DNA from: an uncultured SAR86 cluster bacterium
GTDB lineage: Bacteria; Pseudomonadota; Gammaproteobacteria; Magnimaribacterales; D2472
Direction of reading: 5' to 3'
DNA length: 47,997 bases
Assembly (NCBI GenBank): GCA_902594005.1
Contig: CACJKN010000007.1
Coordinates: 1-47,997 of the forward strand
The notes beneath the pieces were generated by a model. That model was not told the origin of the DNA. It searched no databases and saw nothing but the letters and a program-made list of their open reading frames with translations. How positions within the stretch are numbered: position 1 is the stretch's first letter; every line of letters starts with the position of its first letter. The translations under genes and the position numbers were made by a program. Below are positions 21,488 through 42,845 of the stretch, piece after piece.

Positions 21488-21530
21488 ATTTTATAACTAT
21501 AAAAAAATGCTATCATTTCATCTTATAAGT

Positions 21531-21551: not shown

Positions 21552-21573
21552 TATTGACCGCTTCTTTAATGCA

Positions 21574-24192: not shown

Positions 24193-24872
24193 GCGATGAC
24201 TTGAGATACGAAATTAAACTAGTAGCAAATGAAATAAATTTTTCTGTTTTTAATAAATGGCTTCACATTGAAACAGACTTCTTTAAGAAATATCCAGATC
24301 GACAAATAAATAGCCTATATTTTGATGACAACAACTTTAGTTGTGTAAAAGACAATCTTTCAGGTATTGCACAAAGAAGAAAATATAGACTAAGGTGGTA
24401 TGGCAGAAATGATGAAGAACTTAGCGATCCTGTTTTTGAGATAAAAATTAAAAATGGAAGATTAGGATTCAAAAAATACTTTAACGTTCCTGAACTTAAC
24501 AATAAGCTTAATAATCTAAAGATTAGGCAAATACAAGAAATTGCGTTATTGAAAAACAAAAACAAGAAACTTTTTTTTGATAAAGATCTTAATCCATCTC
24601 TAATAGTTTCATACAAAAGGAATTATTTTGAAAATAATAATGATATTAGAATTACTGTTGACAATAATATAATTTTTTCTGATCCGTCTAACGATAAGCT
24701 TATCCAGAATCATGATCAAGCGGTATTTAACAAAAGAATTATTGAATTTAAGTTTGGTATTAATAAAAAAGATTATGTTTCAAGAATTATGAAAGATTTA
24801 AATATTGTACCTTCACGACACTCAAAATACTTATCTGGATTGGCAATGTTTGGGAAAGTTAATTATCTCTAG
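24189..24872 (+). CDS. VTC-domain protein (polyphosphate-polymerase-like)
   Basis: A 227-residue protein with the tunnel-forming VTC domain of yeast vacuolar polyphosphate polymerase. The ordered basic motifs are all present: RYEIKL at the start, NSLYFDD, RRKYRLRWYG (paired Arg), VFEIKIKNGRLGFKK, SLIVSYKRNYF, IRITVDNNI, IIEFKFG and RHSKYLSG. Bacterial single-domain forms lack membrane helices, as here. The family can polymerise or bind phosphate chains, but its role beside CotH and DUF4956 proteins is not established. The ATG overlaps the CotH stop by 4 bases, so the two are co-translated. Confidence 0.9.
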   Translation: MSDDLRYEIKLVANEINFSVFNKWLHIETDFFKKYPDRQINSLYFDDNNFSCVKDNLSGIAQRRKYRLRWYGRNDEELSDPVFEIKIKNGRLGFKKYFNVPELNNKLNNLKIRQIQEIALLKNKNKKLFFDKDLNPSLIVSYKRNYFENNNDIRITVDNNIIFSDPSNDKLIQNHDQAVFNKRIIEFKFGINKKDYVSRIMKDLNIVPSRHSKYLSGLAMFGKVNYL

Positions 24873-24881
24873 TTTTAAGAA

Positions 24882-27220: not shown

Positions 27221-27223
27221 AAT

Positions 27224-28861
27224 ATGATTCAAGAGATGAGAAAAGCGAGAATAGGTCTAATTTTAGACCAAGGATTACAAGATTGGAGAGTAAAAGATTT
27301 TATTGAAAAATCTTTTGATTCAAATTCTTATAAGATTGAATGTTTAATAATTCAAAATAGCTACGTGCATCAAAGTTTAAAACCTTCCAAACTTATTAAT
27401 AAATATTTTTTTCAAACAATTTTATTCTTTGAAAAGTATTTTGTTAGGAGATATATTCAAACATCTGATTTTTTTAAAAATCATAATATTGAAAAAATTA
27501 ATATCAAAAAAATAAATGTTAACTCATCTATTTCATGTGAAGACTTAACTAGGGAATATTCTGAAAAAGACTTAGATGAGATTAGAAAAGAAAATCTTGA
27601 TTTATTTGTAAATTTTGGTGCTTCTTCTATTAAAGGTGAGCTGTTAGAGGTTTCACCTCATGGTGTAATCTCACTTCAATATGGAAATATAGATGATCAT
27701 AAAAAAGGCCCTCCAGGATTTTGGGAAGTTCTTAACAAAGAGAAGACTACCAATTTTTTTATTCAATCAAATTTCGAAAAGCTCAATAAGGAATGCAAAA
27801 TATTATTTAAAGGATCAATTCCAACAAACTTTTTCTTTACTCTCAATATCATCAAGCTTTATAAAAAATCAAATATATTTGTTCATAAGCTATTGGAAGA
27901 TATTTTTAAAAATAAATTACCAAAAAATATTGATAAATCTACTTCTAAAAATTATTTCATAACGATTCCAAATGTTTCAGAACAGACTCAATATATCCTA
28001 AAAACAAGTGCCCATCTTTTTAAGAAATTTATTCGGAAAGCGAAAAAAAAGAAAGTTGTTTGGAGCATTGGTTATCAATTTTCTAAGGATTGGGAAGACG
28101 TTTGGAATAGCTCATTTAAAAAAGTAGATAACCCAAAAAATACTTATTTTGCCGATCCATTTTTATTTCGCTTTAGAGGAAAAGATTACTGCTTTGTTGA
28201 GCATTTTAATTTTTTGTCCAATAAAGGGCACATTTCCGCATTAGAAATAAATGCTGAAGAGACTAAATTTCTTGGAGCTGCTATTAATGAAGATTTTCAT
28301 CTTTCATACCCAAATATTTTCCAGCACAATGATGAGATTTATATGTGTCCTGAGTCTTCTGCAGCAAAAGATATTAGATTATATAAGTGCAATAATTTTC
28401 CACTTGATTGGAAGCTAGAGAAAATATTAATACAAGATATCCATGCAGTTGACACAAATATATTTAGACTCGATGGTAAGTGGTGGTTGCTTTCAAATGT
28501 AGATAGCTCAAAATCAGATGAGTTTTGTTCAGAGCTTCATCTATTTTACTCAAATGACCTTAAAGGCAATGATTGGAAACCTCATCCAATGAATCCCGTT
28601 ATATTTGATCCAAAATGTGCGCGTAATGGAGGCATGATTTTTCAAAATGAAGAACTTTATAGGGTTTTTCAGGTACAAGGCTGGGATAATTATGGAGAGA
28701 GCTTCGGTGTTTCAAAGATAATCAAAATAAATGAGCATGAATATTCAGAAGAACAAGTTTTTGAATTTTCACCAAAACTATTAAAGAAAGCAAAGGGAGC
28801 ACATACTCTTAATTCAAATAATGGACTAATTGTTTCTGATTGTTATTCTTTTGATAATTAG
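27224..28861 (+). CDS. Formyltransferase-like domain fused to GINT1/GH43-like beta-propeller
   Basis: A 545-residue two-domain protein. The N-terminal part (about residues 1-260) is formyltransferase-like, with DLFVNFGASSIKGELLEVSPHGVISLQYGN and KKGPPGFWEVL. The expected Asn-x-His pair is changed, so formyl transfer is doubtful. The C-terminal part (about 275-545) is a five-bladed-propeller type related to GH43 and to the N-terminal domain of plant glucosamine inositolphosphorylceramide transferase. Blade motifs are TYFADPFLFRFRGKDYCFVEHF, HLSYPNIFQHNDEIYMCPES, DTNIFRLDGKWWLLS and CARNGGMIFQNEELYRVFQ. This two-part arrangement is found in other bacterial glycan loci, with function unknown. 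Confidence 0.75.
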   Translation: MIQEMRKARIGLILDQGLQDWRVKDFIEKSFDSNSYKIECLIIQNSYVHQSLKPSKLINKYFFQTILFFEKYFVRRYIQTSDFFKNHNIEKINIKKINVNSSISCEDLTREYSEKDLDEIRKENLDLFVNFGASSIKGELLEVSPHGVISLQYGNIDDHKKGPPGFWEVLNKEKTTNFFIQSNFEKLNKECKILFKGSIPTNFFFTLNIIKLYKKSNIFVHKLLEDIFKNKLPKNIDKSTSKNYFITIPNVSEQTQYILKTSAHLFKKFIRKAKKKKVVWSIGYQFSKDWEDVWNSSFKKVDNPKNTYFADPFLFRFRGKDYCFVEHFNFLSNKGHISALEINAEETKFLGAAINEDFHLSYPNIFQHNDEIYMCPESSAAKDIRLYKCNNFPLDWKLEKILIQDIHAVDTNIFRLDGKWWLLSNVDSSKSDEFCSELHLFYSNDLKGNDWKPHPMNPVIFDPKCARNGGMIFQNEELYRVFQVQGWDNYGESFGVSKIIKINEHEYSEEQVFEFSPKLLKKAKGAHTLNSNNGLIVSDCYSFDN

Positions 28862-28917
28862 AAAATTATGAATATTGTTGGCGATTGCCTTAAAATGGAA
28901 AAAAGTTTTATAACGAA

Positions 28918-29907
28918 ATGGATTTAAAAAATAAAAAAGTATTTGTTACTGGCGCTGGTGGCTTTATTGGAAGCCACTTATGCTCAAAACTGCTTGACCA
29001 GGGTGCAGATGTGACTGCAATGCTGCATTACAACTCAAGAAGCGATTGGTGTAATTTAGAATTCCTTGATCAAGAAAAAAAAGACTCTTTGAGAGTTATC
29101 AAAGGCAATATTGAGGACTCAAGTTTTATGGATCTAAATACCAAAAATCATGATGTTGTATTTCATCTTGCAGCATTAATAGGCATTCCTTACTCCTACG
29201 AAGCTCCCTTAAGTTATGTCAAGACAAATATTCAAGGAACTGTAAATGTTTTGGAGGCAGCAAGAAAAAATAATATAGGACTTATTATTAATACCTCAAC
29301 TTCGGAGACATATGGTACAGCAATATATTCACCAATTGATGAGTCTCATCCAATGCAAGGACAATCACCCTATTCAGCAACCAAGATCTCTGCAGATATG
29401 TTAGCAGAGAGTTATTACAACTCATTTGAAACTCCTGTAATAACTGTAAGACCGTTCAATACTTATGGCCCAGGACAATCTGCTAGAGCAGTTATACCAA
29501 CAATAATCTCACAGTTGCTTAGCAAAGATAAAATCATTCTTGGAGGCCTTTCCCCAATTAGAGATTTTACCTATGTAGATGATACTGCTAGAGGATTTAT
29601 TTGCGCTGCAAATAACTCAGATAGAATCGGAGAAGTTATTAACCTTGGCTTTGGGAAGGGCATTACCATAGAAGATGTTGCAAAATTGATTATGAAGTTA
29701 ACTGGTATTGAGAAAGATATATATTGTGAGGAATCAAGAGTAAGACCTAAGAATAGTGAAGTGTTTCATCTTATTAGTAACAATGATAAAGCAAAAGATC
29801 TTATTGGTTGGGAGCCAGAGATATCACTTGAAGATGGTCTTTCTGAAACAATAGAATTTGTTAAAAAAAATATAGATCTTTTTAAAACAAATTCATATTC
29901 AATCTGA
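28918..29907 (+). CDS. NDP-sugar 4,6-dehydratase, LegB-like SDR
   Basis: A 329-residue extended SDR resembling LegB-type nucleotide-sugar 4,6-dehydratases. The cofactor motif is GAGGFIG near residue 12. Subfamily features are HYNSRSDWCNLEFL, VFHLAALIGIPYSYEAPLSYV, STSETYGTAIYSPIDE, GQSPYSATKISADMLAESYY (catalytic Tyr and Lys) and RPFNTYGPGQSARAVIP. LegB acts in legionaminic acid synthesis, but no LegC aminotransferase is adjacent. Instead a nucleotidyltransferase and an SDR reductase follow, so the product is more likely a 6-deoxysugar. A 56-base gap precedes it. Confidence 0.85.
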   Translation: MDLKNKKVFVTGAGGFIGSHLCSKLLDQGADVTAMLHYNSRSDWCNLEFLDQEKKDSLRVIKGNIEDSSFMDLNTKNHDVVFHLAALIGIPYSYEAPLSYVKTNIQGTVNVLEAARKNNIGLIINTSTSETYGTAIYSPIDESHPMQGQSPYSATKISADMLAESYYNSFETPVITVRPFNTYGPGQSARAVIPTIISQLLSKDKIILGGLSPIRDFTYVDDTARGFICAANNSDRIGEVINLGFGKGITIEDVAKLIMKLTGIEKDIYCEESRVRPKNSEVFHLISNNDKAKDLIGWEPEISLEDGLSETIEFVKKNIDLFKTNSYSI

Positions 29908-29908
29908 G

Positions 29909-30628
29909 ATGCAAGCAATTATTTTAGCTGGGGGAAAAGGAACAAGACTTCTTCCGCATACTGCCAATCTGCCTAAACCTCTTATGCCAATGGGAGAGAT
30001 GCCAATTTTGGAAATTATTGTTATGCAACTTAAAAATGCTGGAGCATCATCAATAATAATGGCGGTTGGACATCTCCATCATATGATCGAAGCTCATTTT
30101 GGTGACGGGTCAGATTTTGGTATCCCAATTTCTTACTCACTTGAAGATAAGCCTCTCGGTACAGCAGGACCTCTAAACCTTATTTATGAAAAATTAGAAG
30201 AAAACTTTATTGTTCTCAATGGCGATCTTTTGACAACCTTAAATTTTGAGAATTTATTTAATGAGCATATTCGCTCAAATGCATCAGCTACTATAGCTAC
30301 TTTTAAAAGGACTGTTGATATTGACTTTGGTGTGCTGGAGATAGATTCAGGAAAAAGGCTGGTTGAGTATAAAGAAAAACCCACTTTAAATTATCAAGTA
30401 AGCATGGGAATCAATGTTTTTAAAAAAAATTCAGTTAAAAATCTTTTACATAATGCTGTATATCTAGATATTCCAGATTTAATGATGGGATTAAAAAATA
30501 ATGGTGAAGAAGTATTATGTCATTATGAAGATTGTCAGTGGCTTGATATAGGAAGGATTGATGATTACAGCATCGCAACAAAGATCTTTGAAGAAAATAA
30601 AGAAAAGTTTTTGTCAAAAACGAAATGA
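29909..30628 (+). CDS. Sugar-1-phosphate nucleotidyltransferase
   Basis: A 239-residue GT-A-fold NDP-sugar pyrophosphorylase. It begins with the signature AIILAGGKGTRLLPHTANLPKPLMPMGEMP (nucleotide loop with Lys), followed by ITLxYxxE-like YSLEDKPLGTAGPL, FIVLNGDLLTTLNF (metal-site Asp) and the C-terminal WLDIGRIDDY. It is of the short type without a left-handed helix domain. It lies one base after the 4,6-dehydratase and overlaps the reductase by 4 bases, so it presumably supplies the activated sugar that these two convert. The base and sugar are not determinable, but GDP- or CDP-activation is typical of such sets. Confidence 0.88.
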   Translation: MQAIILAGGKGTRLLPHTANLPKPLMPMGEMPILEIIVMQLKNAGASSIIMAVGHLHHMIEAHFGDGSDFGIPISYSLEDKPLGTAGPLNLIYEKLEENFIVLNGDLLTTLNFENLFNEHIRSNASATIATFKRTVDIDFGVLEIDSGKRLVEYKEKPTLNYQVSMGINVFKKNSVKNLLHNAVYLDIPDLMMGLKNNGEEVLCHYEDCQWLDIGRIDDYSIATKIFEENKEKFLSKTK

Positions 30629-31533
30629 AAGCGCTTTTAACAGGTGCAAATGGCTTTTTAGGAAAACATCTAATAAATAAACTCAATTCAGAAGGTTGTG
30701 AGGTTTACAGTCTAGGTAGAGCCGAAGCTAAAAATACTAATTTTTTTCATTTAGAGTCTCTTGACGACAAAAAAACAATTGAGAGATGCTTATTAGATAT
30801 CAAGCCTAATTACCTTTTTCACCTTGCAGGAATAGTTTCTAATGATGAAGATGAGAGCAAAAAAGTTAATACAAATTTTGCAGAAAAACTTTTGAATGCA
30901 ATAGATAAATGTAGCTTAGCAAATAAAACAAAAGTACTGATGGTAGGTTCTGCATCGGAGTATGGAGACATTAATTGCGAAGATACACCAATAAAGGAAA
31001 GCTTTGAACCTAAACCTTTTAATGTATATGGAAAAACAAAACTAGAACAAACTCGGATTGGCCTTGACTGGAAAAGCAATGAAAAGTTTATAGTATTTGC
31101 TAGACCTTTTAATATTATTGGTCCAGGAATTCCAAAGTTTCTTGCAATAGGGAATTTTATTAATCAAATAAATTCCATAGAAAATGAGGGTGAAATATTT
31201 ACTGGGAATCTAAATTCTCAAAGAGATTATATTGATGTGGATGATGTTTGCTCTATTTTTTGGGGACTTATTAATTGTAATGAAGCAAATGGAGAGATAA
31301 TTAATATTTGCTCAGGTAAGGCGAAGAAGGTAAAGGAAATCTTAAATTTTTTGATAGTACATTCTAATAAAAATATAAGAATAAGAACTGATAAAAGACT
31401 TATGCGTAAAAAAGATATACCAATTCATGTTGGAGATAATACTAAATTAAGAACCTTCTTAAAGGATTTTGAATTTACTCCATGGAGTAGTACGTTAAGT
31501 AAATTAATCGATAATAATTTAGAAAAGATTTAA
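30625..31533 (+). CDS. NDP-4-keto-6-deoxysugar reductase-like SDR
   Basis: A 302-residue extended SDR. The cofactor motif GANGFLG lies at residues 7-13, SASEYG corresponds to the catalytic Ser region, and YGKTKLEQT carries the Tyr and Lys. The pattern resembles GDP-4-keto-6-deoxymannose reductases (RMD) and related 4-ketoreductases, with ARPFNIIGPG and QRDYIDVDDV. Downstream of a 4,6-dehydratase and a nucleotidyltransferase it completes a simple three-step pathway to a 6-deoxysugar. An epimerase is the other possibility. Confidence 0.8.
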   Translation: MKALLTGANGFLGKHLINKLNSEGCEVYSLGRAEAKNTNFFHLESLDDKKTIERCLLDIKPNYLFHLAGIVSNDEDESKKVNTNFAEKLLNAIDKCSLANKTKVLMVGSASEYGDINCEDTPIKESFEPKPFNVYGKTKLEQTRIGLDWKSNEKFIVFARPFNIIGPGIPKFLAIGNFINQINSIENEGEIFTGNLNSQRDYIDVDDVCSIFWGLINCNEANGEIINICSGKAKKVKEILNFLIVHSNKNIRIRTDKRLMRKKDIPIHVGDNTKLRTFLKDFEFTPWSSTLSKLIDNNLEKI

Positions 31534-31535
31534 GG

Positions 31536-32648
31536 ATGAAAGATATTAGATTGCTGGTTGTTGGAGGGTTCCCAAGTGATGATGAAAAAATCTTTGGCGG
31601 AATAGTCAGGTCTTGCAGGATTTTAGAGAAATCATCTATTTTTGAAGATTTAGATCTAATAAAACTCGATTCAACTCAGATATCGAATCCAGCTCCAAAT
31701 TTTCTAATAAGGTTAATTTTTGCATTAAGAAGATTTATGAGATTTTTGGGTATTATTTTTATAGACAAACCAAATGTAGCATTAATCTTTTGTTCAGATG
31801 GTTTTAGCGCAATTGAAAAATCATTGATGTTGGTCTTTTGTAAAATTTTTAGATGTAAGACTCTTATTTTCCCAAGAGCAGGGAACCTTATTGAGCAATT
31901 CCAAAGCAATAAATTTTTATCAACCTTTGTTAGTTATGGTTTCCAAAGATCAAACCTTTTTTTATGTCAAGGCGAAGTCTGGAAACAGTTCGCAATAAAT
32001 CAAATAAAAATACCTAAAGAAAAAACAAGAATAATAAAGAATTGGACAGCAACAAAGAAACTTCTTGAAGCAGGAAAGGGTAGGTCCTTTAGTAAAAAGT
32101 CTAAAAAAAAGGAAATTATTTTTATTGGTTGGCTTGAAAAATCAAAAGGAGTGTTTGAATTGTTAGAATCAATAAGATTATTAAGTCAAAATAAGAATAA
32201 TAATCTTCATCTTTCAATGATCGGAGATGGAAATGCATTTCGAGAAGCAAAAGATTTTCTAAAAAAACATTCATTAGAAAAATATATCTCTCTCCTTGGA
32301 TGGAAAAAGGATGAGGAAATCTTAGATCTCTTAGCAAAATCAGATATTTTTGTTTTACCCTCTTGGGCTGAGGGATTTCCTAATTCAGTTATAGAAGGCA
32401 TGGCTACTGGAAATGCTGTTATTGCCACCAAAGTTGGAGCTATTCCTGATATTCTCATTCACAATCAAAGTTGTTTACTTGTAAATCCAAAGGATCAAGA
32501 TGAATTAAATAATGCATTAGAGTTACTTATTTCAGATGAAAACTTAATAAAAAAGCTTGCTGAGAATGCAGTCACTTTTGCAGATTCAAACTTTTCTGAA
32601 CATAAATCTTTATCACGTCTAAGAAGTTGCATTGAGGAAATAATTTAG
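31536..32648 (+). CDS. GT4-family glycosyltransferase
   Basis: A 370-residue GT-B glycosyltransferase. N-terminal part: LLVVGGFPSDDEKIFGGIVRS, a glycine-rich loop. C-terminal donor domain: EIIFIGWLEKSKGVFELLE, MIGDGNAFREAK, LLGWKKDEEIL and the signature FVLPSWAEGFPNSVIEGMATGNAVIAT with its E-x7-E pair. It follows the 6-deoxysugar set by 2 bases and may transfer that sugar. Soluble or peripherally membrane-bound; no helices are predicted by eye. Confidence 0.88.
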   Translation: MKDIRLLVVGGFPSDDEKIFGGIVRSCRILEKSSIFEDLDLIKLDSTQISNPAPNFLIRLIFALRRFMRFLGIIFIDKPNVALIFCSDGFSAIEKSLMLVFCKIFRCKTLIFPRAGNLIEQFQSNKFLSTFVSYGFQRSNLFLCQGEVWKQFAINQIKIPKEKTRIIKNWTATKKLLEAGKGRSFSKKSKKKEIIFIGWLEKSKGVFELLESIRLLSQNKNNNLHLSMIGDGNAFREAKDFLKKHSLEKYISLLGWKKDEEILDLLAKSDIFVLPSWAEGFPNSVIEGMATGNAVIATKVGAIPDILIHNQSCLLVNPKDQDELNNALELLISDENLIKKLAENAVTFADSNFSEHKSLSRLRSCIEEII

Positions 32649-32688
32649 AAAAAGTGATATATTTCACCACAAGAAAGCCACAAATTAT

Positions 32689-33735
32689 ATGGATAACTTC
32701 GATATTTTCAAAAACAAGACTCTATTAATTACCGGAGGAACTGGATCCTTTGGTAATGCAGTTGCTAAAAGATTTCTTGATACCGACATTAATGAGATTA
32801 GGATCTTGAGTAGAGATGAAAAAAAACAAGACGACATGAGAAAGAAGTATAAAAATAATAAACTCAAATTCTACATTGGAGATGTAAGAGATCCAGCCTC
32901 TATTCAGAATTCAATTATTGGAGTAGATTATATTTTTCATTCGGCAGCGCTTAAGCAAGTCCCAAGTTGCGAATTCCATCCACTTGAAGCAGTTAAAACA
33001 AACATACTTGGTACTGAAAATGTTTTACAGGCAGCAATAGATAATATGGTTGAAAAAGTAGTTTGCCTGAGCACTGATAAAGCTGTTTATCCAATTAATG
33101 CTATGGGAATTTCAAAAGCATTGATGGAAAAAGTTATCGTAGCTAAATCTAGAAATAGCGATAAAACCATTATATGCGGAACAAGGTATGGAAATGTAAT
33201 GGCATCTAGAGGGTCAGTGATACCTCTTTTTACAAAGCAAATACTTGAAAACAAACCAATAACCATAACTGACCCAAAAATGACAAGATTTATGATGACT
33301 CTCGATGATGCTGTCAATTTAGTCTTATTTGCATTTAGTAACGGAGAACCTGGTGAAATATATGTTCAAAAATCTCCTGCCGCAACTATTGAAGTATTAG
33401 CCGAAGCTCTCAAAGAGATTTTGAATAAACCAAAACATGAGATTAAAAATATAGGAACAAGGCATGGAGAAAAGAAGTACGAAGTTTTGCTTAGCAAAGA
33501 AGAGATGTGTAACGCAAAAGACTTAAATAACTATTATTGTGTTCCACCTGATTTAAGAGATTTAAACTATGAAAAGTATTTAGATCAAGGAAATACCAAT
33601 ATACAAGATCTTGATGAATATAGTTCAGATAATACAACAAGACTTGATAAAGAAACTATGAAGGAGTTGCTTTTAAAATTAGATACAATCTTGCAAATTA
33701 GCAAGGGTAACCTAAGTGCAACCTTTGAAGAATAA
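32689..33735 (+). CDS. fnlA: UDP-GlcNAc 4,6-dehydratase/5-epimerase (FnlA/CapE/WbjB)
   Basis: First enzyme of UDP-N-acetyl-L-fucosamine synthesis. It converts UDP-GlcNAc to a 4-keto-6-deoxy-L-sugar and continues with epimerisation. The 348-residue CapD-type SDR has the cofactor loop GGTGSFG, RILSRDEKKQDDM, SAALKQVPSCEFHPLEAV, LSTDKAVYPINAMGISKALMEK (the Asp-Lys and Met-Lys pattern of this group replaces YxxxK) and CGTRYGNVMASRGSV. The next two genes are the other two pathway enzymes, so the assignment is firm. Because PseB-type enzymes start from the same substrate with the same inversion, it might also feed PseC at 10326. Confidence 0.95.
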   Translation: MDNFDIFKNKTLLITGGTGSFGNAVAKRFLDTDINEIRILSRDEKKQDDMRKKYKNNKLKFYIGDVRDPASIQNSIIGVDYIFHSAALKQVPSCEFHPLEAVKTNILGTENVLQAAIDNMVEKVVCLSTDKAVYPINAMGISKALMEKVIVAKSRNSDKTIICGTRYGNVMASRGSVIPLFTKQILENKPITITDPKMTRFMMTLDDAVNLVLFAFSNGEPGEIYVQKSPAATIEVLAEALKEILNKPKHEIKNIGTRHGEKKYEVLLSKEEMCNAKDLNNYYCVPPDLRDLNYEKYLDQGNTNIQDLDEYSSDNTTRLDKETMKELLLKLDTILQISKGNLSATFEE

Positions 33736-34839
33736 ATGAACGTTCTCATCACAGGTAGCAATGGGTTCATTGGTAAGAATCTAAAAATATCCCTAGAAAA
33801 GCTTAAGAGATTCAATATTATTGACTTCAATAGAGAGCATTCTGAAGAAGATCTATTAATTGCAGTAAAAAAAGCAGAGATTATTGTTCACCTTGCGGGA
33901 GAGAACAGACCCGAAAACAATGAAGCTTTTGAAGAAACAAATCATATGCTTACGAAAAAGATATGTAAATTTTGCAGTGAAAAAGATACTAAGACTCATA
34001 TAATTTTTTCATCTTCCATCCAAGCTGGAAATGATAGCCAATATGGCAAAAGTAAACTGGCGGCTGAGGAAGAATTATTAAAACTTAAAAATAACTCTGC
34101 GAATTTTGTAAATATTTTTAGGTTTCCTGGAGTCTTTGGTAAATGGTGTAAACCAAACTACAATTCAGTTGTAGCAACTTTTTGCAACAATGTTGCAAAC
34201 AATCTGCCAATAGAAATAAAAGATAAATCTAATAAACTTAATCTAGTTTATATCGATGATCTTGTAGATCAAATATTAGAAGTGATAAATTCTCCTTTGG
34301 ATGAGGTCTTTGTAGATACAAAGTCAGTACATCAAAAAACTCTAGGTGAAGTCGCTGAAATTATCAATTCTTTTAGAAAAAATAGAACTAAGTTGTATGT
34401 GGCCAATATGGAAGATTCTTTTATCAAGGCTTTATATGCAACCTATGTAACTTATTTACCCAAAGAAAATTTTTCTTATGACTTGATAAGTCATGAAGAT
34501 GAGAGGGGAGTTTTTGTAGAATTCTTAAAATCAAAACTTTTTGGTCAAGTTTCTTTTCTTACTTCAAATCCTGGAGTTACCAGAGGAGAACATTTTCATC
34601 ATACAAAACTTGAAAAGTTTTTAGTGATCAAGGGAAAAGCTAGGTTTAGATTCAGATCGTTAGACAATAATGAGAAATTTGAGATTTTTACAGATAATGA
34701 AAAGCTACAAGTTGTTGAAAGCATCCCGGGCTGGGCTCATGACATTACAAATGTTGGAGAAAATGAGATGATTGTTTTACTGTGGGCTAATGAAATTTTT
34801 GATGAGAAAAGGCCAGATACTTTCTCACACGAGGTATGA
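33736..34839 (+). CDS. fnlB: UDP-2-acetamido-2,6-dideoxy-hexulose reductase with cupin domain (FnlB/CapF/WbjC)
   Basis: Second enzyme of the FucNAc pathway. An N-terminal SDR domain (about residues 1-245; GSNGFIG, HLAGENRPENNEAF, YGKSKLAAEEEL, RFPGVFGKWCKPNYNS) is followed by a C-terminal cupin (about 255-367) with the metal-ligand stretch GVTRGEHFHHTKLEKF and IPGWAHDITNVG. This SDR-cupin fusion is diagnostic of CapF. In CapF the cupin holds zinc and assists epimerisation, while the SDR domain reduces C4. The ATG directly abuts the FnlA stop. Confidence 0.95.
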   Translation: MNVLITGSNGFIGKNLKISLEKLKRFNIIDFNREHSEEDLLIAVKKAEIIVHLAGENRPENNEAFEETNHMLTKKICKFCSEKDTKTHIIFSSSIQAGNDSQYGKSKLAAEEELLKLKNNSANFVNIFRFPGVFGKWCKPNYNSVVATFCNNVANNLPIEIKDKSNKLNLVYIDDLVDQILEVINSPLDEVFVDTKSVHQKTLGEVAEIINSFRKNRTKLYVANMEDSFIKALYATYVTYLPKENFSYDLISHEDERGVFVEFLKSKLFGQVSFLTSNPGVTRGEHFHHTKLEKFLVIKGKARFRFRSLDNNEKFEIFTDNEKLQVVESIPGWAHDITNVGENEMIVLLWANEIFDEKRPDTFSHEV

Positions 34840-34842
34840 AAG

Positions 34843-35973
34843 ATGAAAAAACTTAAAGTAATGTCAGTGGTAGGCACAAGGCCAGAAATAATCAGGCTTT
34901 CACAAGTAATGAAAAGACTCGATGAAACATGTGATCACACAATTGTTCATACAGGTCAAAATTATGACTTCGAATTAAATGAGATATTTTTTGAAGATCT
35001 AGAAATTAGAAAACCAGATTATTTTTTAGAATGCGCTGAAGATACTGCTTTAAAAACAATTGGATCTGTTCTGGCTAAAATGGATGACTTGCTAGATTCT
35101 AACCCTCAAGATGCAGTTTTAGTTTTAGGAGATACGAATAGCTGTATTTCACTTTTAGCAGCTAAAAGAAAAAGAATCCCAACATTTCATATGGAGGCAG
35201 GGAATAGATGTTTTGATATGAGGGTTCCCGAAGAAATAAATAGGAGGCTTGTTGATCATATTGCAGATATTAATTTACCATATAGCTCAATTGCTCGTGA
35301 CTATCTTCTAAGCGAGGGACTTCCAAAAGATTTAATAATTAAAACCGGAAGTCCTATGAAAGAGGTTTTGAACAAGAATTCTAAAAAAATAAATAATTCA
35401 AATATCCTTAATAAATATGGATTAGAAAGAGGAAATTTTTTCTTAGTCAGCGCTCATAGAGAAGAAAATATTGATAGCGAAAAGAATTTTTCAAAATTTG
35501 TGGGGGTTTTGGATGGATTAATAGAAGAATTTGAACTCCCAATAGTTGTATCTACCCACCCAAGGACAAAGAAAAGGATAGACTCTTTAGATAGAAAATT
35601 TGATAAGAGAATAAACTTTTCGAAACCAATGAGTTTTAGTGATTACAATAATCTTCAATTAAATGCCAAAGTCACACTATCAGATAGTGGAACAATTTCA
35701 GAGGAGTCATCAATACTTAATTTTCCTGCTCTTAACATAAGAGAAGCTCACGAAAGACCAGAGGCAATGGAGGAAGCTGCAGTAATTATGACTGGGATGA
35801 ATATTGAGAGAATTTCCCAATCAATTTCAATACTTGAAAAGCAAATGGACATATCAAACTCAACTCCTGCAAAGGTATTAGATTATGAAGTAGATAATGT
35901 CTCAGAAAAGATTTGTAGAATAATTCATAGCTATACAGACTATGTTAATCGAGTAATTTGGAAAAAATACTAA
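34843..35973 (+). CDS. fnlC: UDP-N-acetyl-L-fucosamine synthase (FnlC/CapG/WbjD, UDP-GlcNAc 2-epimerase family)
   Basis: Third enzyme of the pathway, inverting C2 to give UDP-L-FucNAc. The 376-residue GT-B-like epimerase has SVVGTRPEIIRLSQVM, VHTGQNYDFELNEIFF, VLGDTNSC, PTFHMEAGNRCFDMRVPEEINRR, SAHREENID and LSDSGTISEESSIL, with HERPEAMEEA near the C-terminus. The MEAGNRCFD pattern separates this clade from WecB. It lies 3 bases after fnlB and 3 bases before the WbuB-like transferase that should use its product. Confidence 0.95.
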   Translation: MKKLKVMSVVGTRPEIIRLSQVMKRLDETCDHTIVHTGQNYDFELNEIFFEDLEIRKPDYFLECAEDTALKTIGSVLAKMDDLLDSNPQDAVLVLGDTNSCISLLAAKRKRIPTFHMEAGNRCFDMRVPEEINRRLVDHIADINLPYSSIARDYLLSEGLPKDLIIKTGSPMKEVLNKNSKKINNSNILNKYGLERGNFFLVSAHREENIDSEKNFSKFVGVLDGLIEEFELPIVVSTHPRTKKRIDSLDRKFDKRINFSKPMSFSDYNNLQLNAKVTLSDSGTISEESSILNFPALNIREAHERPEAMEEAAVIMTGMNIERISQSISILEKQMDISNSTPAKVLDYEVDNVSEKICRIIHSYTDYVNRVIWKKY

Positions 35974-35976
35974 CTT

Positions 35977-37194
35977 ATGAGAGTTTTGTTAGTAACTCAT
36001 CATTTTTGGCCTGAAAATTTTAAAGTAAATGACTTGATTGATGGTCTTCTAGATAAAGGTCATGATGTAACAATTCTTACAGGAAAACCCAACTATCCTG
36101 AAGGAAAGATTTATCCTGAATTTAGAGATAATCCTCAAAAATTTAGAAAATTTAGAAGTGCGCAAATAAAGAGAGTTCCAGTTATCCCAAGAGGATCTTC
36201 AAGAATACAATTATTTCTGAACTATTTAAGTTTTTTATTTTCTTTATCCTTGCTTGGACCCTTTAAGACTAGAAAAAAAAAATTTGATTGCATATTAGTA
36301 TTTGCAGTTTCACCTATTTCAGTGGCAATACCCGCAATCTTAATTTCAAAACTGAGAAAAGTTCCAGTGCTTTTATGGGTTCTCGATCTATGGCCAGAAA
36401 CATTGATGGCCCTGGGATTTAAATCAAAGGGACTTCTAGGGTTTATTTCTCATGTAGTTAATTTTATTTATAAGCAGGCAGCCATAATTTTAGTGCCTTC
36501 AAAAGGAGCAGTAAAGAAAATTAAAGACGATTATAATCTTCAAAATAATGTATTTTTTTTCCCTGGTTGGGCTGAGGAACTATTTAATATAAATGAGGCA
36601 GGACAGCCAGTTATACCGCTTGAAAGTGATTGCTTTAATATTGTCTTCACTGGCAATATTGGAGAAGCTCAAGATTTCGGCTCACTTATTAAAGTTGCTA
36701 ACAAGTGCAAAGAAGTAAAAAGAATTAAATGGCACATTGTGGGAGATGGAAGGAAAAAATCCTGGTTAGATAAAAAGATTTTGGAAAATGGGTTAGATAA
36801 CACTATTTATACTCACGGCAGTTTTGATGTGAGTGAAATGCCAGCTCTTTTAGCAAACGCAGATGCTTTGTTATTGTCATTGAGAAATAATCCTATTTTT
36901 GAAATTACAATTCCAGGAAAATTTCAGACATATTGTTCCGCTAGAAAACCAATAATCAGTCTAGCTAAAGGAGAAGTAAACAACTTAGTTGATGATATTA
37001 ATGCTGGTGTAACAGGCGTATCTGACAATTTGGATGAATTTGCAAAAAAAATTATAGATTTATCTAAAATGCCAAATGATAAACTTGAGAAAATTGGGAA
37101 AAATGCATCATTATTTGCAAAAAGAGAATTTAATAGAGATCATCTTATAAATAAACTTGAAGACCACTTTAAACAAGCTACTTCAAAAAAATAA
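35977..37194 (+). CDS. wbuB: WbuB-like GT4 glycosyltransferase (probable FucNAc transferase)
   Basis: A 405-residue GT4 enzyme. It begins VTHHFWPENFKVNDLIDGL and TGKPNYPEGKIYPEF, stretches typical of WbuB, the L-FucNAc transferase encoded beside fnlABC in E. coli O26-type clusters. LWVLDLWPETLMALGF and a donor-site region VFTGNIGEAQDF, HIVGDGRKKSWL and ITIPGKFQTYCSARKP follow. Hydrophobic stretches around 75-125 suggest membrane association. An A10 run lies within the coding sequence at 36273-36282. Linkage to fnlABC is the main support for substrate. Confidence 0.85.
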   Translation: MRVLLVTHHFWPENFKVNDLIDGLLDKGHDVTILTGKPNYPEGKIYPEFRDNPQKFRKFRSAQIKRVPVIPRGSSRIQLFLNYLSFLFSLSLLGPFKTRKKKFDCILVFAVSPISVAIPAILISKLRKVPVLLWVLDLWPETLMALGFKSKGLLGFISHVVNFIYKQAAIILVPSKGAVKKIKDDYNLQNNVFFFPGWAEELFNINEAGQPVIPLESDCFNIVFTGNIGEAQDFGSLIKVANKCKEVKRIKWHIVGDGRKKSWLDKKILENGLDNTIYTHGSFDVSEMPALLANADALLLSLRNNPIFEITIPGKFQTYCSARKPIISLAKGEVNNLVDDINAGVTGVSDNLDEFAKKIIDLSKMPNDKLEKIGKNASLFAKREFNRDHLINKLEDHFKQATSKK

Positions 37195-37197
37195 ATA

Positions 37198-38388
37198 ATG
37201 AATATAGAAAATATAACTATTATTGGATCTGGCTATGTAGGTCTTGCTCTGGCAGTTTCATTGTCAAAAAAATATAGTATTTGCATTAATGATATTGATG
37301 AAGAAAAAGTAAATAAACTTAATCAGGGTCTCTCTCCTTTAGACGATGATGAATTTTTAGAGCAATTTAAAAATAGTAATCCTAAAATAATTGCAACAAA
37401 TTCAATCGAGAAAGCATTAAAAAAAACTCAATTAGTTTTTATATGTGTCCCAACAAATTTTGATGAGAAAGCAGGCTGCTTTGATACAACAATAATAGAG
37501 GGCTTGCTTGATGAGATATCAAGAAGTAAATCAAATCCTCTTATAGTTATCAAATCGACTCTACCAGTTGGATTTGTTGAAAAGCAAAATAAGATTTTTC
37601 AAGATCTCCAAATAATTTTTTCACCTGAATTTTTAAGAGAGGGTTCAGCAATTTCTGATTGTGAGGAGCCTTCAAGAATAATTTTAGGTGGCGACAGTAG
37701 CTTCAATCAATATGAAAAGATATTTGATGTTCTTCTCTCTGCTAAAAAATCAAAATTTGATACAACTACAAGAGTTATGAGCTCCTCAGAAGCCGAGGCT
37801 GTTAAATTATTTTCTAATACCTATCTAGCAATGAGAGTTGCATTTTTTAATGAGCTGGATAGTTTCTCCATTCAAAACTCTTTAAGTGCAAAGAATATAA
37901 TTGATGGGGTGTCTGATGATCAAAGAATAGGAGATCATTACAATAATCCATCTTTTGGATATGGTGGATATTGCCTTCCAAAAGATACTAAACAATTAAT
38001 TAGCGATTCCAAAGATTCTCCAAGCAAGCTTATTACTTCAATTGTCGAATCAAATCAAGAAAGGAAGAAGTTTTTAGCTGGTGAAGTAGCTAAAAAAGAA
38101 TTTAAAACTATTGGGGTCCACAGGATGATAATGAAAAAAGGCTCTTCAAATTTTAGGGAATCATCTATCTTAGATATTATTAACTTTCTTGATGAGCTTA
38201 ATAAGGAAGTAATTATTTATGAACCACTTTTAGATGACTCAACCTATTTGGGCAAATATACAGTTTTTGAAGACCAAGATATTTTTTTTCAAAGTTGTGA
38301 CATAGTTTTATCAAATAGGATTGAAGAAATACCAGAAAAATATTTAAATAAAATTTATACTCGAGATATTTTTAATACTGATAGATGA
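37198..38388 (+). CDS. ugd: UDP-glucose 6-dehydrogenase
   Basis: Oxidises UDP-glucose to UDP-glucuronate with two NAD. The Rossmann motif GSGYVG is at residues 10-15. The FICVPTNFDE, KSTLPVGF and SPEFLREG elements are typical, and the catalytic Cys259 lies in GYGGYCLPKDTKQL. At 396 residues it is of the short enteric/streptococcal type. Its product is the substrate of the UDP-glucuronate 4-epimerase at 6202. It overlaps pdxH by 4 bases. Confidence 0.95.
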   Translation: MNIENITIIGSGYVGLALAVSLSKKYSICINDIDEEKVNKLNQGLSPLDDDEFLEQFKNSNPKIIATNSIEKALKKTQLVFICVPTNFDEKAGCFDTTIIEGLLDEISRSKSNPLIVIKSTLPVGFVEKQNKIFQDLQIIFSPEFLREGSAISDCEEPSRIILGGDSSFNQYEKIFDVLLSAKKSKFDTTTRVMSSSEAEAVKLFSNTYLAMRVAFFNELDSFSIQNSLSAKNIIDGVSDDQRIGDHYNNPSFGYGGYCLPKDTKQLISDSKDSPSKLITSIVESNQERKKFLAGEVAKKEFKTIGVHRMIMKKGSSNFRESSILDIINFLDELNKEVIIYEPLLDDSTYLGKYTVFEDQDIFFQSCDIVLSNRIEEIPEKYLNKIYTRDIFNTDR

Positions 38389-39121: not shown

Positions 39122-39655
39122 ATTCTCATAGCTCGTCAAAGAAAACAATCAATTCCTATAAACGAACAGATTAAAGTATCTGAGGTCATGCTTATTGATT
39201 CTAAAGGGAAAAAGCATGGCATTATGCAAATTGAAAAAGCCCTTGAAAAGGCAAACAAGGATAACTTAGATTTAGTTCAAGTATCTCCTAAAGACTCTGA
39301 TCCAGTTGTATGCAAGCTATTGGATTATGGGAAATATGTCTTTGATAAGAAAAAAAATATTTCAAGCTCAAAATCAAAGGTTAGAAAAACATCCCTCAAA
39401 GAGATTAAATTTAGACCATCAACTGATACAGGCGACTACAATATTAAATTAAAAAAAATTAAAAGCTTTATTCTAAGTGGAAATAAGACTAAAATTAACG
39501 TCCGTTTTAGGGGCAGAGAGATTCTCAACAGTAATTTAGGCTTAGAACTCCTTAATAAGATAAGGGATGAATTAGCTGAAATATCGCAAGTTGATCAAGA
39601 GCCTTCTCTTGAAGGTAGGCAACTTCAGATGGTTCTTTCTCCCGTTAAGAAATAG
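39122..39655 (+). CDS. infC: Translation initiation factor IF-3, non-AUG start
   Basis: IF-3 binds the 30S subunit and polices start-codon choice. From the first in-frame ATG (39188) only 155 residues are encoded and the conserved N-terminal segment is lost. Reading upstream to the in-frame stop at 39119-39121 adds [19 protein letters not shown], which matches the IF-3 N-terminus (INEQI...). The start must therefore be ATT at 39122 or ATA at 39128, giving 177 or 175 residues, close to the E. coli 180. AUU starts underlie infC autoregulation in E. coli, so the same control is likely. Further motifs are [31 protein letters not shown] and [11 protein letters not shown]. Confidence 0.95.
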
Positions 39656-39665
39656 GAAAGTTATT

Positions 39666-39857
39666 ATGGGATATAAGTTAAAAAAACATTCCGGTGCTTC
39701 GAAGCGCTTTAAAAAGACTTCTAACTCGTTAAAGACTAGGAGTGCAAATAGAAATCATATTCTGTCCAAGCAAAGCACTAAAAGGAAAAGACATAATAGA
39801 GGTTTAAATAAATTATCTGGAACCACACTTAAAGTTGCTTCCAGCCTTTTAAGGTAA
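39666..39857 (+). CDS. rpmI: Large ribosomal subunit protein bL35
   Basis: A 63-residue very basic ribosomal protein: [17 protein letters not shown], then [19 protein letters not shown], the expected bL35 pattern. I use the ATG at 39666 with GGAAAG 5-10 bases upstream. An in-frame start at 39591 would lie within infC and add 25 unrelated residues. Most bL35 begin MPKMKT; here the start MGYKLKK is slightly different. It is in the universal infC-rpmI-rplT order, 10 bases after infC. Confidence 0.96.
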
Positions 39858-39862
39858 TTGTC

Positions 39863-40213
39863 ATGCCAAGAGTAACAAAATCATTAACAGCAAAGAAGAA
39901 ACATCTAAAAGTTCTTAAAGCTACCAAAGGTCATTACGGAGCCAGAAGCAGATTGTATAAGACTGCCAAACAATCCAATATAAAATCTCTTCAATACGCT
40001 TTTAGAGATAGAAAAAATAGAAAAAGAAGTTTCAGATCTCTTTGGATTTCAAGAATTAATGCTGCTGCAAGAGACTTTGGTTTAAGTTATTCAGTCTTTT
40101 TAAATGGCCTTAAAAAAAATAATATTCTATTGAATAGGAAAGTTCTATCTGAGATATCTATCTCTGATAGAAAAGCTTTTGAAGAGATAATTCAGATTGT
40201 AAAATCTGATTGA
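39863..40213 (+). CDS. rplT: Large ribosomal subunit protein bL20
   Basis: A 116-residue ribosomal protein that binds 23S rRNA early in assembly. It begins MPRVTKSLTAKKKHLKVLK, followed by AKGHYGARSRLYKTAKQ-like and YAFRDRKNRKRSFRSLWISRINAA segments, and ends with the usual globular domain (LNRKVLSEISI). Length matches the E. coli protein (118). It lies 5 bases after rpmI, and its stop overlaps the pheS start (TGATG). Confidence 0.97.
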   Translation: MPRVTKSLTAKKKHLKVLKATKGHYGARSRLYKTAKQSNIKSLQYAFRDRKNRKRSFRSLWISRINAAARDFGLSYSVFLNGLKKNNILLNRKVLSEISISDRKAFEEIIQIVKSD

Positions 40214-40938
40214 TGAGCCAGAATAAGAAGTTATTTCCAGACCTAGTTAAGGAACTTGGAACAATCCATCCGATCACTCAAATAAAAAGTGAAATCCTCA
40301 CGCTTCTTGAGAAAATAGGCTTCGACTCCATTGATGGCCCAGAAATTGAGACTGAGGAATATAACTTTGATATGTTAAATATTAAAAAAACTCATCCTGC
40401 AAGGCAAATGCATGATACTTTTTATGTTCAAAATAAAGATTTTGTTTTAAGAACACACACTTCACCAGTCCAAATTAGAGGGATGCTTGAACAAAAGCCA
40501 CCTATTGCTTTTTGTTCAGCAGGAAAGGTCTACAGAAAAGATGATGACTCTACTCATCTACCCATGTTTCATCAAGTCGAAGGTATTTATGTTGATGAAA
40601 ATGTGAACTTTACTCATTTGAAGAGCCTAATATACAAAATAGTTACATCTTTATTTGGTTCAAAAGTAAAGATCAGATTTAGACCTTCATATTTCCCTTT
40701 TACCGAGCCATCTGCAGAAGTAGACATACTTTATGAGGATAGCGACCAATGGCTTGAGATCTTAGGATGTGGCATTGTAAATCCTAAAGTCTTAGAAAAC
40801 TGCGATATAGATCCAAATAAATATAGTGGTTTAGCGTTTGGTCTAGGAGTAGAAAGAATGGCAATGCTAAGGTATGGAGTTTCTGATATCAGAGATTTCT
40901 ATAAATCCAATTTAGATTTTCTAAGGCAGTTTAAATGA
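40213..40938 (+). CDS. pheS: Phenylalanyl-tRNA synthetase alpha subunit, lacking the N-terminal coiled coil
   Basis: Catalytic subunit of class II PheRS. All class II motifs are present: TEEYNFDMLNIKKTHPAR, FVLRTHTSPVQIRGM, FCSAGKVYRKDDDSTHLPMFHQVEG (motif 2), FRPSYFPFTEPSAEVD, WLEILGCGIVNP and GLAFGLGVERMAMLRYG (motif 3). At 241 residues it is about 90 shorter than the usual ~330. It begins just before the segment GTIHPITQ that follows the coiled coil in E. coli. rplT, normal in length, directly abuts it, so no upstream coding room exists. I prefer the ATG at 40213 (TGATG with the rplT stop) over the in-frame TTG at 40210. It overlaps pheT by 4 bases. Confidence 0.96.
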   Translation: MSQNKKLFPDLVKELGTIHPITQIKSEILTLLEKIGFDSIDGPEIETEEYNFDMLNIKKTHPARQMHDTFYVQNKDFVLRTHTSPVQIRGMLEQKPPIAFCSAGKVYRKDDDSTHLPMFHQVEGIYVDENVNFTHLKSLIYKIVTSLFGSKVKIRFRPSYFPFTEPSAEVDILYEDSDQWLEILGCGIVNPKVLENCDIDPNKYSGLAFGLGVERMAMLRYGVSDIRDFYKSNLDFLRQFK

Positions 40939-42845
40939 AAGCTTTAGTTAATGATATAAAAGCAAGGATAAAAGATCCTATTTCAAATAATGAGTTATCT
41001 AACTTACTATTTCAGCTTGGTCATGAGAACGATATCCAGGATAGTATTATTGATATTGATATCACTCCCAACAGAGGGGATTGTCTTTCATTATTAGGCA
41101 TATTACGGGATTTAAAAAACTTCTATCAAATAGATACAAAATATGAAACCCATGAAGAAATAATAGATTCTTTTAATCCTAATTTTTTTAATGAATGCAC
41201 TGAAAGCTGCCCTAATATTTCTTTTTTAAAGATAGAGATTGATAAAACTACTTCACATTATGAAGAATACTTAGAAAATTATTTTTCTGAGCTTGGGAAT
41301 AGAAAAATTAATTTATTTACTGATATTTCTAATTACCTCTCTTATGAGCTAGGTCAGCCAACACACTGCTATGATTTTTCAAAACTTAGTAGCGAGATAG
41401 TTCTTAAGACTTCGGAAGAAAATATGCAGTTTGAAACCCTCACTGATAAAAAAGTAGAACTCTCTAATAGTAATTTAGTTTTCGAGATGGACAATAAAAT
41501 TATTAATCTTGCAGGCGTAATGGGCGGCAAGGAGACTGCTTGTTCAGACTCAACAACTACTGTATTAGTTGAATGTGCTTTTTTTGTGCCTGAATCAATT
41601 ATAGGAAAATCAGTAAAATATGATTTAAATTCTGAGGCTGCTCATAGATTTGAAAGGGGCGTTGATCCAGCATGTCAAGAATTTGTGCTGAGAAGATTCC
41701 TAAAAATTGTTTCAGATCATGCAAAAATCAAAAAAATAGAACTGTATTCGCAAGTCAACAAGGAGTTGAATAAAAATTTTATCAAATGTGATAGAAAAAA
41801 GATTGAAAACATTCTTGGTGTTACTATTGAAAAAGAAAAATTCACTAATATTCTTGAAAATCTGGGTTTCAAAATTGAAAACGAGAACATATTCATTCCT
41901 TCCTATCGAAACGATATTTTCTCCTCAAATGATATCGCTGAGGAGATCGCAAGGATTATTGGTTATGACAATCTTCCATCAAATGATATAAATTTAGAAA
42001 AATTATCAAATAAAATTCGCTCAAAGTCAGTTGAGACATTTTTAAGAAAAACACTAACTTTAGAAGGCTTTAGCGAGGTAATAAATAGCCCATTCGTAGA
42101 AAATCAAAGTTCAAATTGTTTTACGGTTGATAACCCTCTCGATAGCAATAGAAATTCATTGCGCACCTCGCTGAGAGAGTCTTTAATAAACAATCTTTTA
42201 TATAATGAAAGAAGGCAGAAAGACAGTGTAAAGTTTTTTGAAATTTCTGATGTTTATTGTGTAAACGATAAAAAGTTAGTAAGACAACAAAAACTTGGCA
42301 TTATTGCTTCAGGAAGAATAGGAAATAACTACAAAGAATTTTCACAACAAATTAATAAAAACTACTTAAATGATATTCTTGTCTCAAAGTTATCAGTTTC
42401 AGATTCAATTATAGAAAATTTATCGAGAGAAAATCTCGACACAAAAATTAAAACACCTATCTTCTATACAGAGATAGACCTAAAAGAGATAAATGGACTG
42501 GAAGCAGATTCAGATCTACTGAAAGATATAAACAAAGAGATTAGATATAAAAGAATTTCTGAGTTCCCAGCCATCAGCCGTGACATATCATTTTTAATTA
42601 AAAATGAGAATAAAATAAAAACTGTTAATGACATGGTTCAAGATTTTGAAAGTAAAATACTTAAAGAGCAATTTATTTTTGATTTTTACAAAGATGATAA
42701 AAATGGGGTTACCAAAATAGGGTATAGATTTATTTTTCAATCTAATGAAAAAACGCTCACACTAGATGAAGTAGATGTGGCCATAAAAAAAGTAATTGAA
42801 TCTATTATTAGTGATGATGAAATCGAAGTACCTGGTTATAGTTGA
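40935..42845 (+). CDS. pheT: Phenylalanyl-tRNA synthetase beta subunit, reduced form
   Basis: Beta subunit of PheRS; the family is usually ~790 residues, this one 636. Residues 1-34 correspond to the N-terminal B1 piece, but the sequence then goes straight to DIDITPNRGDCLSLLG. This omits the roughly 115-residue EMAP-like tRNA-binding OB domain (B2). B3/B4 editing-region features remain (YLSYELGQPTHCYDF, AGVMGGKET, VECAFFVPESI, SEAAHRFERGVDP), then B5 (about 285-350). B6/B7 looks shortened, with no HPGQSA-like segment. The C-terminal FDX-ACB anticodon-binding domain (about 545-636; FPAISRDISFLI, KIGYRFIFQS) is intact. Coupled to pheS by a 4-base overlap. Confidence 0.95.
   Translation: MKALVNDIKARIKDPISNNELSNLLFQLGHENDIQDSIIDIDITPNRGDCLSLLGILRDLKNFYQIDTKYETHEEIIDSFNPNFFNECTESCPNISFLKIEIDKTTSHYEEYLENYFSELGNRKINLFTDISNYLSYELGQPTHCYDFSKLSSEIVLKTSEENMQFETLTDKKVELSNSNLVFEMDNKIINLAGVMGGKETACSDSTTTVLVECAFFVPESIIGKSVKYDLNSEAAHRFERGVDPACQEFVLRRFLKIVSDHAKIKKIELYSQVNKELNKNFIKCDRKKIENILGVTIEKEKFTNILENLGFKIENENIFIPSYRNDIFSSNDIAEEIARIIGYDNLPSNDINLEKLSNKIRSKSVETFLRKTLTLEGFSEVINSPFVENQSSNCFTVDNPLDSNRNSLRTSLRESLINNLLYNERRQKDSVKFFEISDVYCVNDKKLVRQQKLGIIASGRIGNNYKEFSQQINKNYLNDILVSKLSVSDSIIENLSRENLDTKIKTPIFYTEIDLKEINGLEADSDLLKDINKEIRYKRISEFPAISRDISFLIKNENKIKTVNDMVQDFESKILKEQFIFDFYKDDKNGVTKIGYRFIFQSNEKTLTLDEVDVAIKKVIESIISDDEIEVPGYS

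Follow-up and report, generated by a model that had tools for sequence, protein, structure and literature searches.

A phenylalanyl-tRNA synthetase without B2 domain and PheS coiled coil, encoded beside a surface-polysaccharide island in SAR86 bacteria

We describe here the phenylalanyl-tRNA synthetase (PheRS) genes pheS and pheT of an uncultured SAR86 cluster bacterium, as found in a stretch of 47,997 nucleotides (contig CACJKN010000007.1 of assembly GCA_902594005.1, positions 1 to 47,997; hereafter the window). The PheT chain lacks the B2 domain and some 30 residues of the B6/B7 module, and the PheS chain lacks the N-terminal coiled coil; the catalytic core, the editing site and the anticodon-binding domain are kept, in line with the minimal bacterial PheRS proposed in a first-pass annotation of the sequence. 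The same double loss occurs in two SAR86 groups whose PheRS and rpoB phylogenies conflict, and the gene pair is located on the shoulder of a hypervariable island of surface-polysaccharide genes. We consider it likely that the pair specifies a functional, editing-competent enzyme of reduced size, and that pheST has been exchanged between SAR86 lineages beside this island.

A synthetase reduced in both subunits

The first-pass annotation had described the 636-residue PheT as devoid of the B2 (EMAP/OB-fold) domain and of part of B6/B7, and both losses are borne out. Pfam profiles detect B3/4, B5, FDX-ACB (B8, E 8e-17) and a partial CLM match (profile positions 19-129 of 214) in this protein, as well as the second half of B1, the latter under the cut-off. 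The B2 profile, tRNA_bind, was not found by the scan, which detects it at residues 45-145 of the E. coli PheT used as control. In the alignment with E. coli PheT, residues 35-153 (119 residues) and 631-660 (30 residues, the LHPGQSA site) are absent from the window protein, and there are further gaps of 4 and 7 residues. The chain had also been said to jump onwards from a fragment of B1. The OB insert is indeed missing, but B1 is no fragment: B2 is normally an insert inside B1, and here the flanking 34 and 39 residues are joined directly into a whole domain, modelled by AlphaFold2 with a predicted local distance difference test score (pLDDT) of 82-93 per block of ten residues (mean for the protein, 88.3). 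Shortness near HPGQSA, another of the early remarks, is confirmed in the form of the 30-residue gap; loss of the motif itself is common, HPG[QR] being missing in 19/19 other SAR86 PheT and in 6/17 further rows of the alignment, so that the gap and not the motif is the distinguishing mark.

A score of 383.7 bits against TIGR00472, with the match beginning at model position 156, leaves the window PheT under the curated cut-off of 402.65. We attribute the shortfall to the absence of B2 combined with divergence, since B2 lies within the model and the B2-less PheT of another genome (G038) still passes, with 578.6 bits. B2 is typical of bacterial heterotetrameric PheRS but not universal, so that its absence is not decisive for membership. 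A structure search with the window PheT model returned bacterial PheT chains as top matches (Z 35-40 over 600-621 residues).

The shortness noted for PheS was likewise correct. The 241-residue protein matches the class II core (tRNA-synt_2d, E 3e-98; TIGR00468, 308 bits against a cut-off of 237), and the N-terminal coiled-coil domain Phe_tRNA-synt_N (PF02912) was not found in it by Pfam scan. An alternative start, TTG at 40210, lies 3 bases upstream of the ATG at 40213, and both are the first starts past the upstream stop.

The enzyme resembles the bacterial (αβ)2 PheRS of E. coli, T. thermophilus and A. baumannii in its PheS core, in B1, B3/B4, B5, B6/B7 and B8, in its editing residues and in the usual gene order infC-rpmI-rplT-pheS-pheT. 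It differs from them by having neither B2 nor coiled coil, by a B6/B7 shorter by about 30 residues and by the polysaccharide genes that come right after pheT. Human mitochondrial PheRS, as portrayed in a passage of PMC3275996, is likewise a reduced form, with the catalytic module and B8 as its basis; it is, however, a monomer without editing domain, whereas in the SAR86 form the beta subunit is retained, editing site included, and the presence of two genes, with an editing domain, sets the window locus apart from single-chain enzymes of this type. Archaeal and eukaryotic cytosolic PheRS have beta chains that align with the window PheT from residue 1 (the P. horikoshii fragment 2cxi to model residue 344, the human 3l4g to 520); according to the same paper they have no B8 and carry N-terminal extensions of alpha, in contrast to the SAR86 form, which has B8 and no extension.

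Searching 61 genomes of the order yielded PheT matches in 52 (28 of them at E<1e-90) and PheS matches in 52. In what follows, f and g label families and genera, G genomes and L public named loci, and a pheST is called doubly reduced when it has neither B2 nor the coiled coil. B2 is absent from 47/47 PheT whose N-terminus was read; the remaining five of the 52 are unread open frames of 664-681 residues (G018, G043, G046 and G056) and a 159-residue piece (G025). Two size classes emerge. The short class combines a PheS of 238-241 residues with a PheT of 632-645 residues, and comprises 25 loci from f4 and from f1 genera g1, g2, g5, g6 and g8 (hereafter short f1). The long class has a PheS of 323-333 and a PheT of 664-679 residues (19 loci; f2, f3 and f1 genera g7 and g9). 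Among the doubly reduced loci, PheS measures 238-241 residues from the first ATG in 24/25, the PheT motif TPNR stands at a constant distance from the start in 25/25, and 13 of the PheT proteins show a mean column identity of 57%. The odd pheS, in G033, is broken into two pieces with internal stops (G033:C2:311662-312364), a frameshift that is either real or sequencing-derived.

Eight public named loci encode a close PheT (40-48% identity), seven of them titled SAR86 cluster bacterium and one Flavobacteriaceae. The latter (L251, JADHME010000003.1), a contig labelled as part of a metagenome-assembled genome (MAG), has a SAR86-type doubly reduced pheST and is probably mis-binned. In a set of 80 named loci, eight are of SAR86 type, their frames having no more than 165 open residues ahead of a conserved PheS motif; 57 of the other 58 in which this motif was read have at least 243, the last (L304) being cut by a contig end, and the motif was unread in 14. 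A locus titled SAR86 cluster bacterium NORP90 (L289, NVUL01000126.1) encodes a PheT of 795 residues with B2 and a PheS of 338. It runs counter to the order-wide absence of B2 and may represent a different or misnamed lineage.

Outside the order, an even sample of the class (185 genomes, pheT in 182) contained 13 PheT without B2, three from SAR86 and ten others, each from a different family. All 13 come from genomes whose listed size does not exceed 2.0 Mb (13/50, against 0/135 larger ones; Fisher 1e-8, or 6e-7 without the three SAR86 genomes), in a test that takes sizes as listed and counted by hand, ignores kinship and includes the three genomes without a pheT match. B2 is also missing in many PheRS beta chains of the Candidate Phyla Radiation (CPR), according to a passage of PMC5370408; there the lineage is different, and the likeness noted concerns the beta chain. 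The idea that B2 loss is a SAR86 speciality was rejected in view of these ten families and of the CPR report. On the PheT core tree, for which B2-less proteins were deliberately chosen (52 of 61 rows), no fewer than three changes of the B2 state are required.

The coiled coil is distributed differently. All ten B2-less genomes from outside SAR86 carry PF02912. The domain is present in 265/276 class genomes, the 11 others being three SAR86 genomes, seven in which no pheS was found and one whose pheS is cut at a contig end; in the phylum it is present in 246/249, the exceptions being the source genome, one genome in which no pheS was found and a 527-residue frame that matches PheS from model position 35. 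Follow-up of these misses gave no clear coiled-coil-less PheS outside SAR86 in the class and Pseudomonadota samples. The double loss was seen solely in two SAR86 groups, f4 and short f1.

Gene trees and the probable exchange of pheST

An rpoB tree of 41 rows divides f1 in two, PheS being full-length in one group and short in the other, and places f4 far off. PheT and PheS core trees, from which the trait columns were excluded, unite f4 with short f1 (Shimodaira-Hasegawa-like approximate likelihood ratio test support of 100 and 99). In approximately unbiased (AU) tests, PheT rejects an f1 clade without f4 (log-likelihood difference 157, p 3e-7) and rpoB rejects the union of f4 and short f1 (p 1e-9); nor does PheT accept genus g6 or genus g1 as a clade. 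Since rpoB sets the two groups far apart whereas pheST unites them, the gene pair has probably moved horizontally between SAR86 lineages. (Left out of the trees were the PheT of G018, G151, G219, G194 and G202, together with G007, G019 and G039, for want of a TPNR-type motif or because of a contig-end cut; the PheS trees omit several loci without the motif used, and G033, with fewer than 200 residues.)

For same-genus genomes (G001, G002 and G009), RpoB identity is 99.4-99.6%, against 44-47% for PheT, and proteins encoded around rpoB are 92-100% identical in the same genome pairs, one paralogue match excepted. The PheS of f4 is 71-73% identical to that of the window, compared with 49-60% for coiled-coil SAR86; infC and rplT of f4, at 41-44% and 64-66%, show no special closeness to the window's. 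In raw identity to the window PheT, f4 (40-42%) stands above coiled-coil SAR86 (27-31%), which agrees with a clade of f4 and short f1.

These results bear on the origin of the small enzyme, which the first-pass annotation ascribed to genome streamlining. In its pure form, this would mean that selection for small genes removed B2, the coiled coil and the loop in B6/B7 stepwise, by vertical descent and without exchange, f4 and short f1 representing either separate losses of the coiled coil or true sisters. The confinement of B2-less PheT to small genomes in the class sample, and the lack of B2 in every PheT read in the order, speak for such a process. However, two genomes of 0.3-0.4 Mb in the class sample retain B2, and the coiled coil is kept by SAR86 whose genomes are about as large (f3, f1 g7). 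Nor does streamlining explain why doubly reduced pheST occur in two rpoB-distant groups, in a conflict of trees that the AU tests strongly support, or why PheT diverges so much further within a genus than the genes around rpoB do. We therefore regard purely vertical reduction as unlikely. The original observation is sound and the streamlining reading is incomplete: streamlining explains part of the picture, and exchange fits the distribution of doubly reduced pheST.

Editing site and tRNA recognition

Residues S132, N133, H144, G197 and E213 of the window PheT align with T253, N254, H265, G318 and E334 of the E. coli editing site. The roles of the editing-site residues are set out, in T. thermophilus numbering, in a passage of PMC3275996; the E. 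coli positions are their counterparts. Inspection of these positions, suggested by the first-pass annotation, found N254, H265, G318 and E334 intact, as they are in 25/25 doubly reduced and 19/19 other SAR86 PheT. The T253 position is occupied by S in 25/25 doubly reduced PheT. Loss of editing was considered and is unsupported by these residues. In a separate case, the PheT of G076 (locus L182, a 0.4 Mb genome of family f20) keeps B2 and has the changes H265N, G318K and E334K; it may be non-editing, to judge by these substitutions.

An enzyme of lower quality might nonetheless be envisioned, one that charges tRNA-Phe without B2 but edits poorly, in a host that tolerates Tyr-for-Phe errors as editing-deficient Mycoplasma do. 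By the title of Roy and Ibba's 2006 paper, the RNA-binding domain is said to be dispensable and to contribute to editing, which would favor this possibility. We nevertheless find it improbable, more so than streamlining, given that the four residues are intact in 25/25 PheT whereas an altered site is obvious in G076.

That title, the tRNA contacts described for the M. tuberculosis enzyme and the split PheT of Mycoplasma pneumoniae together make a working enzyme with a looser grip on the tRNA elbow the natural inference. In M. tuberculosis, a passage of PMC12447630 has the helical arm of the alpha subunit contacting the D and T loops and B8 contacting the anticodon; M. pneumoniae, according to part of PMC12494982, tolerates a PheT split after B1-B2-B1. 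The best reading of the SAR86 form, and a likely one, is a functional and editing-competent tetramer with reduced tRNA grip. The window pheST, the sole PheRS detected in the organism, would be a working bacterial-type (αβ)2 enzyme minus two accessory tRNA-binding modules. B2 would have been lost early in SAR86 or before, B1 closing without its insert, and the PheS coiled coil would have been lost and B6/B7 shortened later, in one group. Phe-tRNA would be made at the intact PheS core, with the anticodon read by B8, and Tyr-tRNA(Phe) would be hydrolysed at the intact B3/B4 site. The tRNA elbow would be held less tightly, and a U60C change in the T loop of tRNA-Phe may be a matching adjustment.

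The SAR86 tRNA-Phe genes were retrieved by DNA search with the E. coli tRNA-Phe, a search that did not find the tRNA-Phe of the source genome. Position 60 is C in 21/27 genomes of the coiled-coil-less groups and U in 22/22 others, with five f4 genomes and G026 as the U60 exceptions. G011, its PheS being unseen, was left out of this count; G012, G026 and G035, which had no PheS match, were grouped by genus (without them C60 stands at 19/24, the other five being f4), and G058, among the 22 with U60, had no PheS match either. The pattern is suggestive only, and could reflect one change in the short f1 group. In the same molecules, positions 27-28 and 42-43, GG/CC in E. coli, read AA/UU in 49/50 SAR86 genomes, G052 keeping G27.

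The island and the standing of the proposal

The hypervariable island that pheST adjoins (Table 1) carries at its right end genes whose translations read like glycosyltransferases and UDP-sugar dehydrogenases. Its left flank (54-5070) matches two same-genus genomes at 77-92% with order kept. Past the island, a pyridoxamine-oxidase-like gene and the block from infC through pheT to the Wza-like and YjbH-like genes are common to the compared genomes at 25-86%. Beyond the window end G001, G003 and G009 are mutually 85-90% identical; further out comes a variable patch (G001 versus G003 56-84% or unshared) and thereafter mostly 89-98%. In coiled-coil SAR86, ihfA is next after pheT in 11/11 loci; in short f1 it is the Wza-like gene in 5/6, G010 having ihfA between. 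Ahead of infC, two f4 genomes carry homologues of the left flank of the window (34-54%), and a few kb past pheT they have tRNA-Cys, tRNA-Leu and genes of sugar-nucleotide type resembling those of the window island. A SAR86 hypervariable region with outer-membrane genes is described in a passage of PMC3569297 that is silent on pheST.

Table 1. Coordinates of the window features discussed in the text
Feature	Position	Strand	Remarks
tRNA-Cys/tRNA-Leu	5074-5250		directly before island
Hypervariable island	5279..38388	+	mostly unshared with same-genus genomes; begins just past tRNA-Cys/tRNA-Leu
infC	candidate starts 39122 or 39128 (non-canonical) or ATG 39188	+	usual upstream neighbour of pheST; infC-rpmI-rplT block spans 39122..40213
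rpmI	39666-39857	+	between infC and rplT
rplT	39863-40213	+	stop overlapped by pheS start
pheS	40213..40938	+	241 residues from ATG, class II catalytic core only; start overlaps rplT stop, end overlaps pheT start
pheT	40935..42845	+	PheRS beta subunit without B2, bacterial type; ATG start, 636 residues
B1 domain	40935..41153	+	residues 1-73, contiguous; B2 (E. coli 35-153) absent after residue 34 (41036/41037)
B3/B4 editing domain	41154..41765	+	residues 74-277; Pfam, alignment with E. coli PheT
B5 domain	41766..41978	+	residues 278-348; Pfam, alignment
B6/B7 catalytic-like module	41979..42494	+	residues 349-520; length 172 (E. coli, 215)
Main B6/B7 gap (E. coli 631-660)	42407/42408	+	after residue 491; alignment with E. 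coli
B8 (FDX-ACB) anticodon-binding domain and linker	42495..42842	+	residues 521-636; Pfam, alignment
Poly_export/SLBB (Wza-like) gene	42909-44666	+	downstream of pheT
YjbH-like gene	44678-46651	+	downstream surface-polysaccharide gene

Although the window is the whole of one contig in a 30-contig genome and the region is strongly unlike that of same-genus genomes, an artefact of assembly, which the first-pass annotation had named as a refuting outcome, or of binning has a negligible chance of being the explanation for contig or gene, in view of the collinear left flank, of the same pheST form at 25 loci of the order and of G003, in which flank, island, pheST and far flank are all on a single 121 kb contig. 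Records with AG or AH names among the loci with this pheST are presumably single-cell genomes; some titles say MAG.

Two further features of the window deserve mention. Between 39122 and 39190, the region that would encode the N-terminus of infC has no ATG, GTG or TTG, and an in-frame TAA is followed by ATT CTC ATA GCT CGT. Initiation at the ATT (39122) or the ATA (39128) is likely from this reading; E. coli infC starts at AUU. At the other end, a gene that runs off the contig (46830-47997) encodes repeated Ig-like surface domains (Bact_surface_Ig-like, HYR), with a counter-strand open reading frame opposite (47387-47710).

Several points weigh against the proposal of a functional enzyme exchanged beside the island. 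The branches that lead to the union of f4 and short f1 are very long (PheT stem 1.55 and 1.87), so that this clade might be misplaced, as might f4 in the rpoB tree (stem 0.9-1.0), and raw PheT identity to the window is rate-dependent too. The PheT tree also places G195 and G096, two B2-less genomes from other families, within SAR86, through either long-branch attraction or more transfer. Hitchhiking and fast evolution of pheT in place are told apart by tree conflicts alone. No Wza-like or YjbH-like genes were found beside the f4 pheST, and U60C is absent from f4 (0/5), also coiled-coil-less, so that its link with the PheS form may be a one-lineage coincidence. Activity, editing and a tetrameric state are predictions. 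The predicted template modelling score is 0.59, and the root-mean-square deviation from known bacterial PheT is about 24 Å (Foldseek/VIA), a value that reflects domain placement and was left out of the argument; the placement of domains in the model is accordingly unreliable. A full-length paralogue, the other circumstance that might have overturned the early interpretation, did not turn up, no second pheT being found in the source genome, which at 79% completeness might still conceal another pheST.

The proposal as a whole would have pheST exchanged between SAR86 lineages, probably together with the adjoining polysaccharide island, a process that would spread the doubly reduced form and keep very old alleles circulating. 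Hitchhiking with the island is the putative cause of the exchange. It is tempting to go further and speculate, with appreciably less assurance, that pheST is a compact cassette repeatedly swapped between genera and families with the island, the T-loop change matching it, so that old alleles persist inside near-identical core genomes.

A literature search, mostly of titles and abstract openings with some passages, found no coiled-coil-less bacterial PheS and no pheST in a SAR86 island; as far as it shows, the novel elements are the PheS without coiled coil, its coupling with a shortened PheT and the probable exchange of pheST next to a surface island. A free-living marine group that apparently lives without B2 and coiled coil, yet keeps the editing site, is a natural experiment on what the large bacterial PheRS can and cannot do without. 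Here two essential genes of translation stand on the shoulder of a hypervariable island, and their alleles have diverged far more than the genes near rpoB; this matters for our view of core-gene evolution close to surface loci and for the use of pheS and pheT as phylogenetic markers in SAR86. Should the idea of a swapped cassette be true, an essential tRNA synthetase would behave like a gene of the flexible genome in these bacteria.

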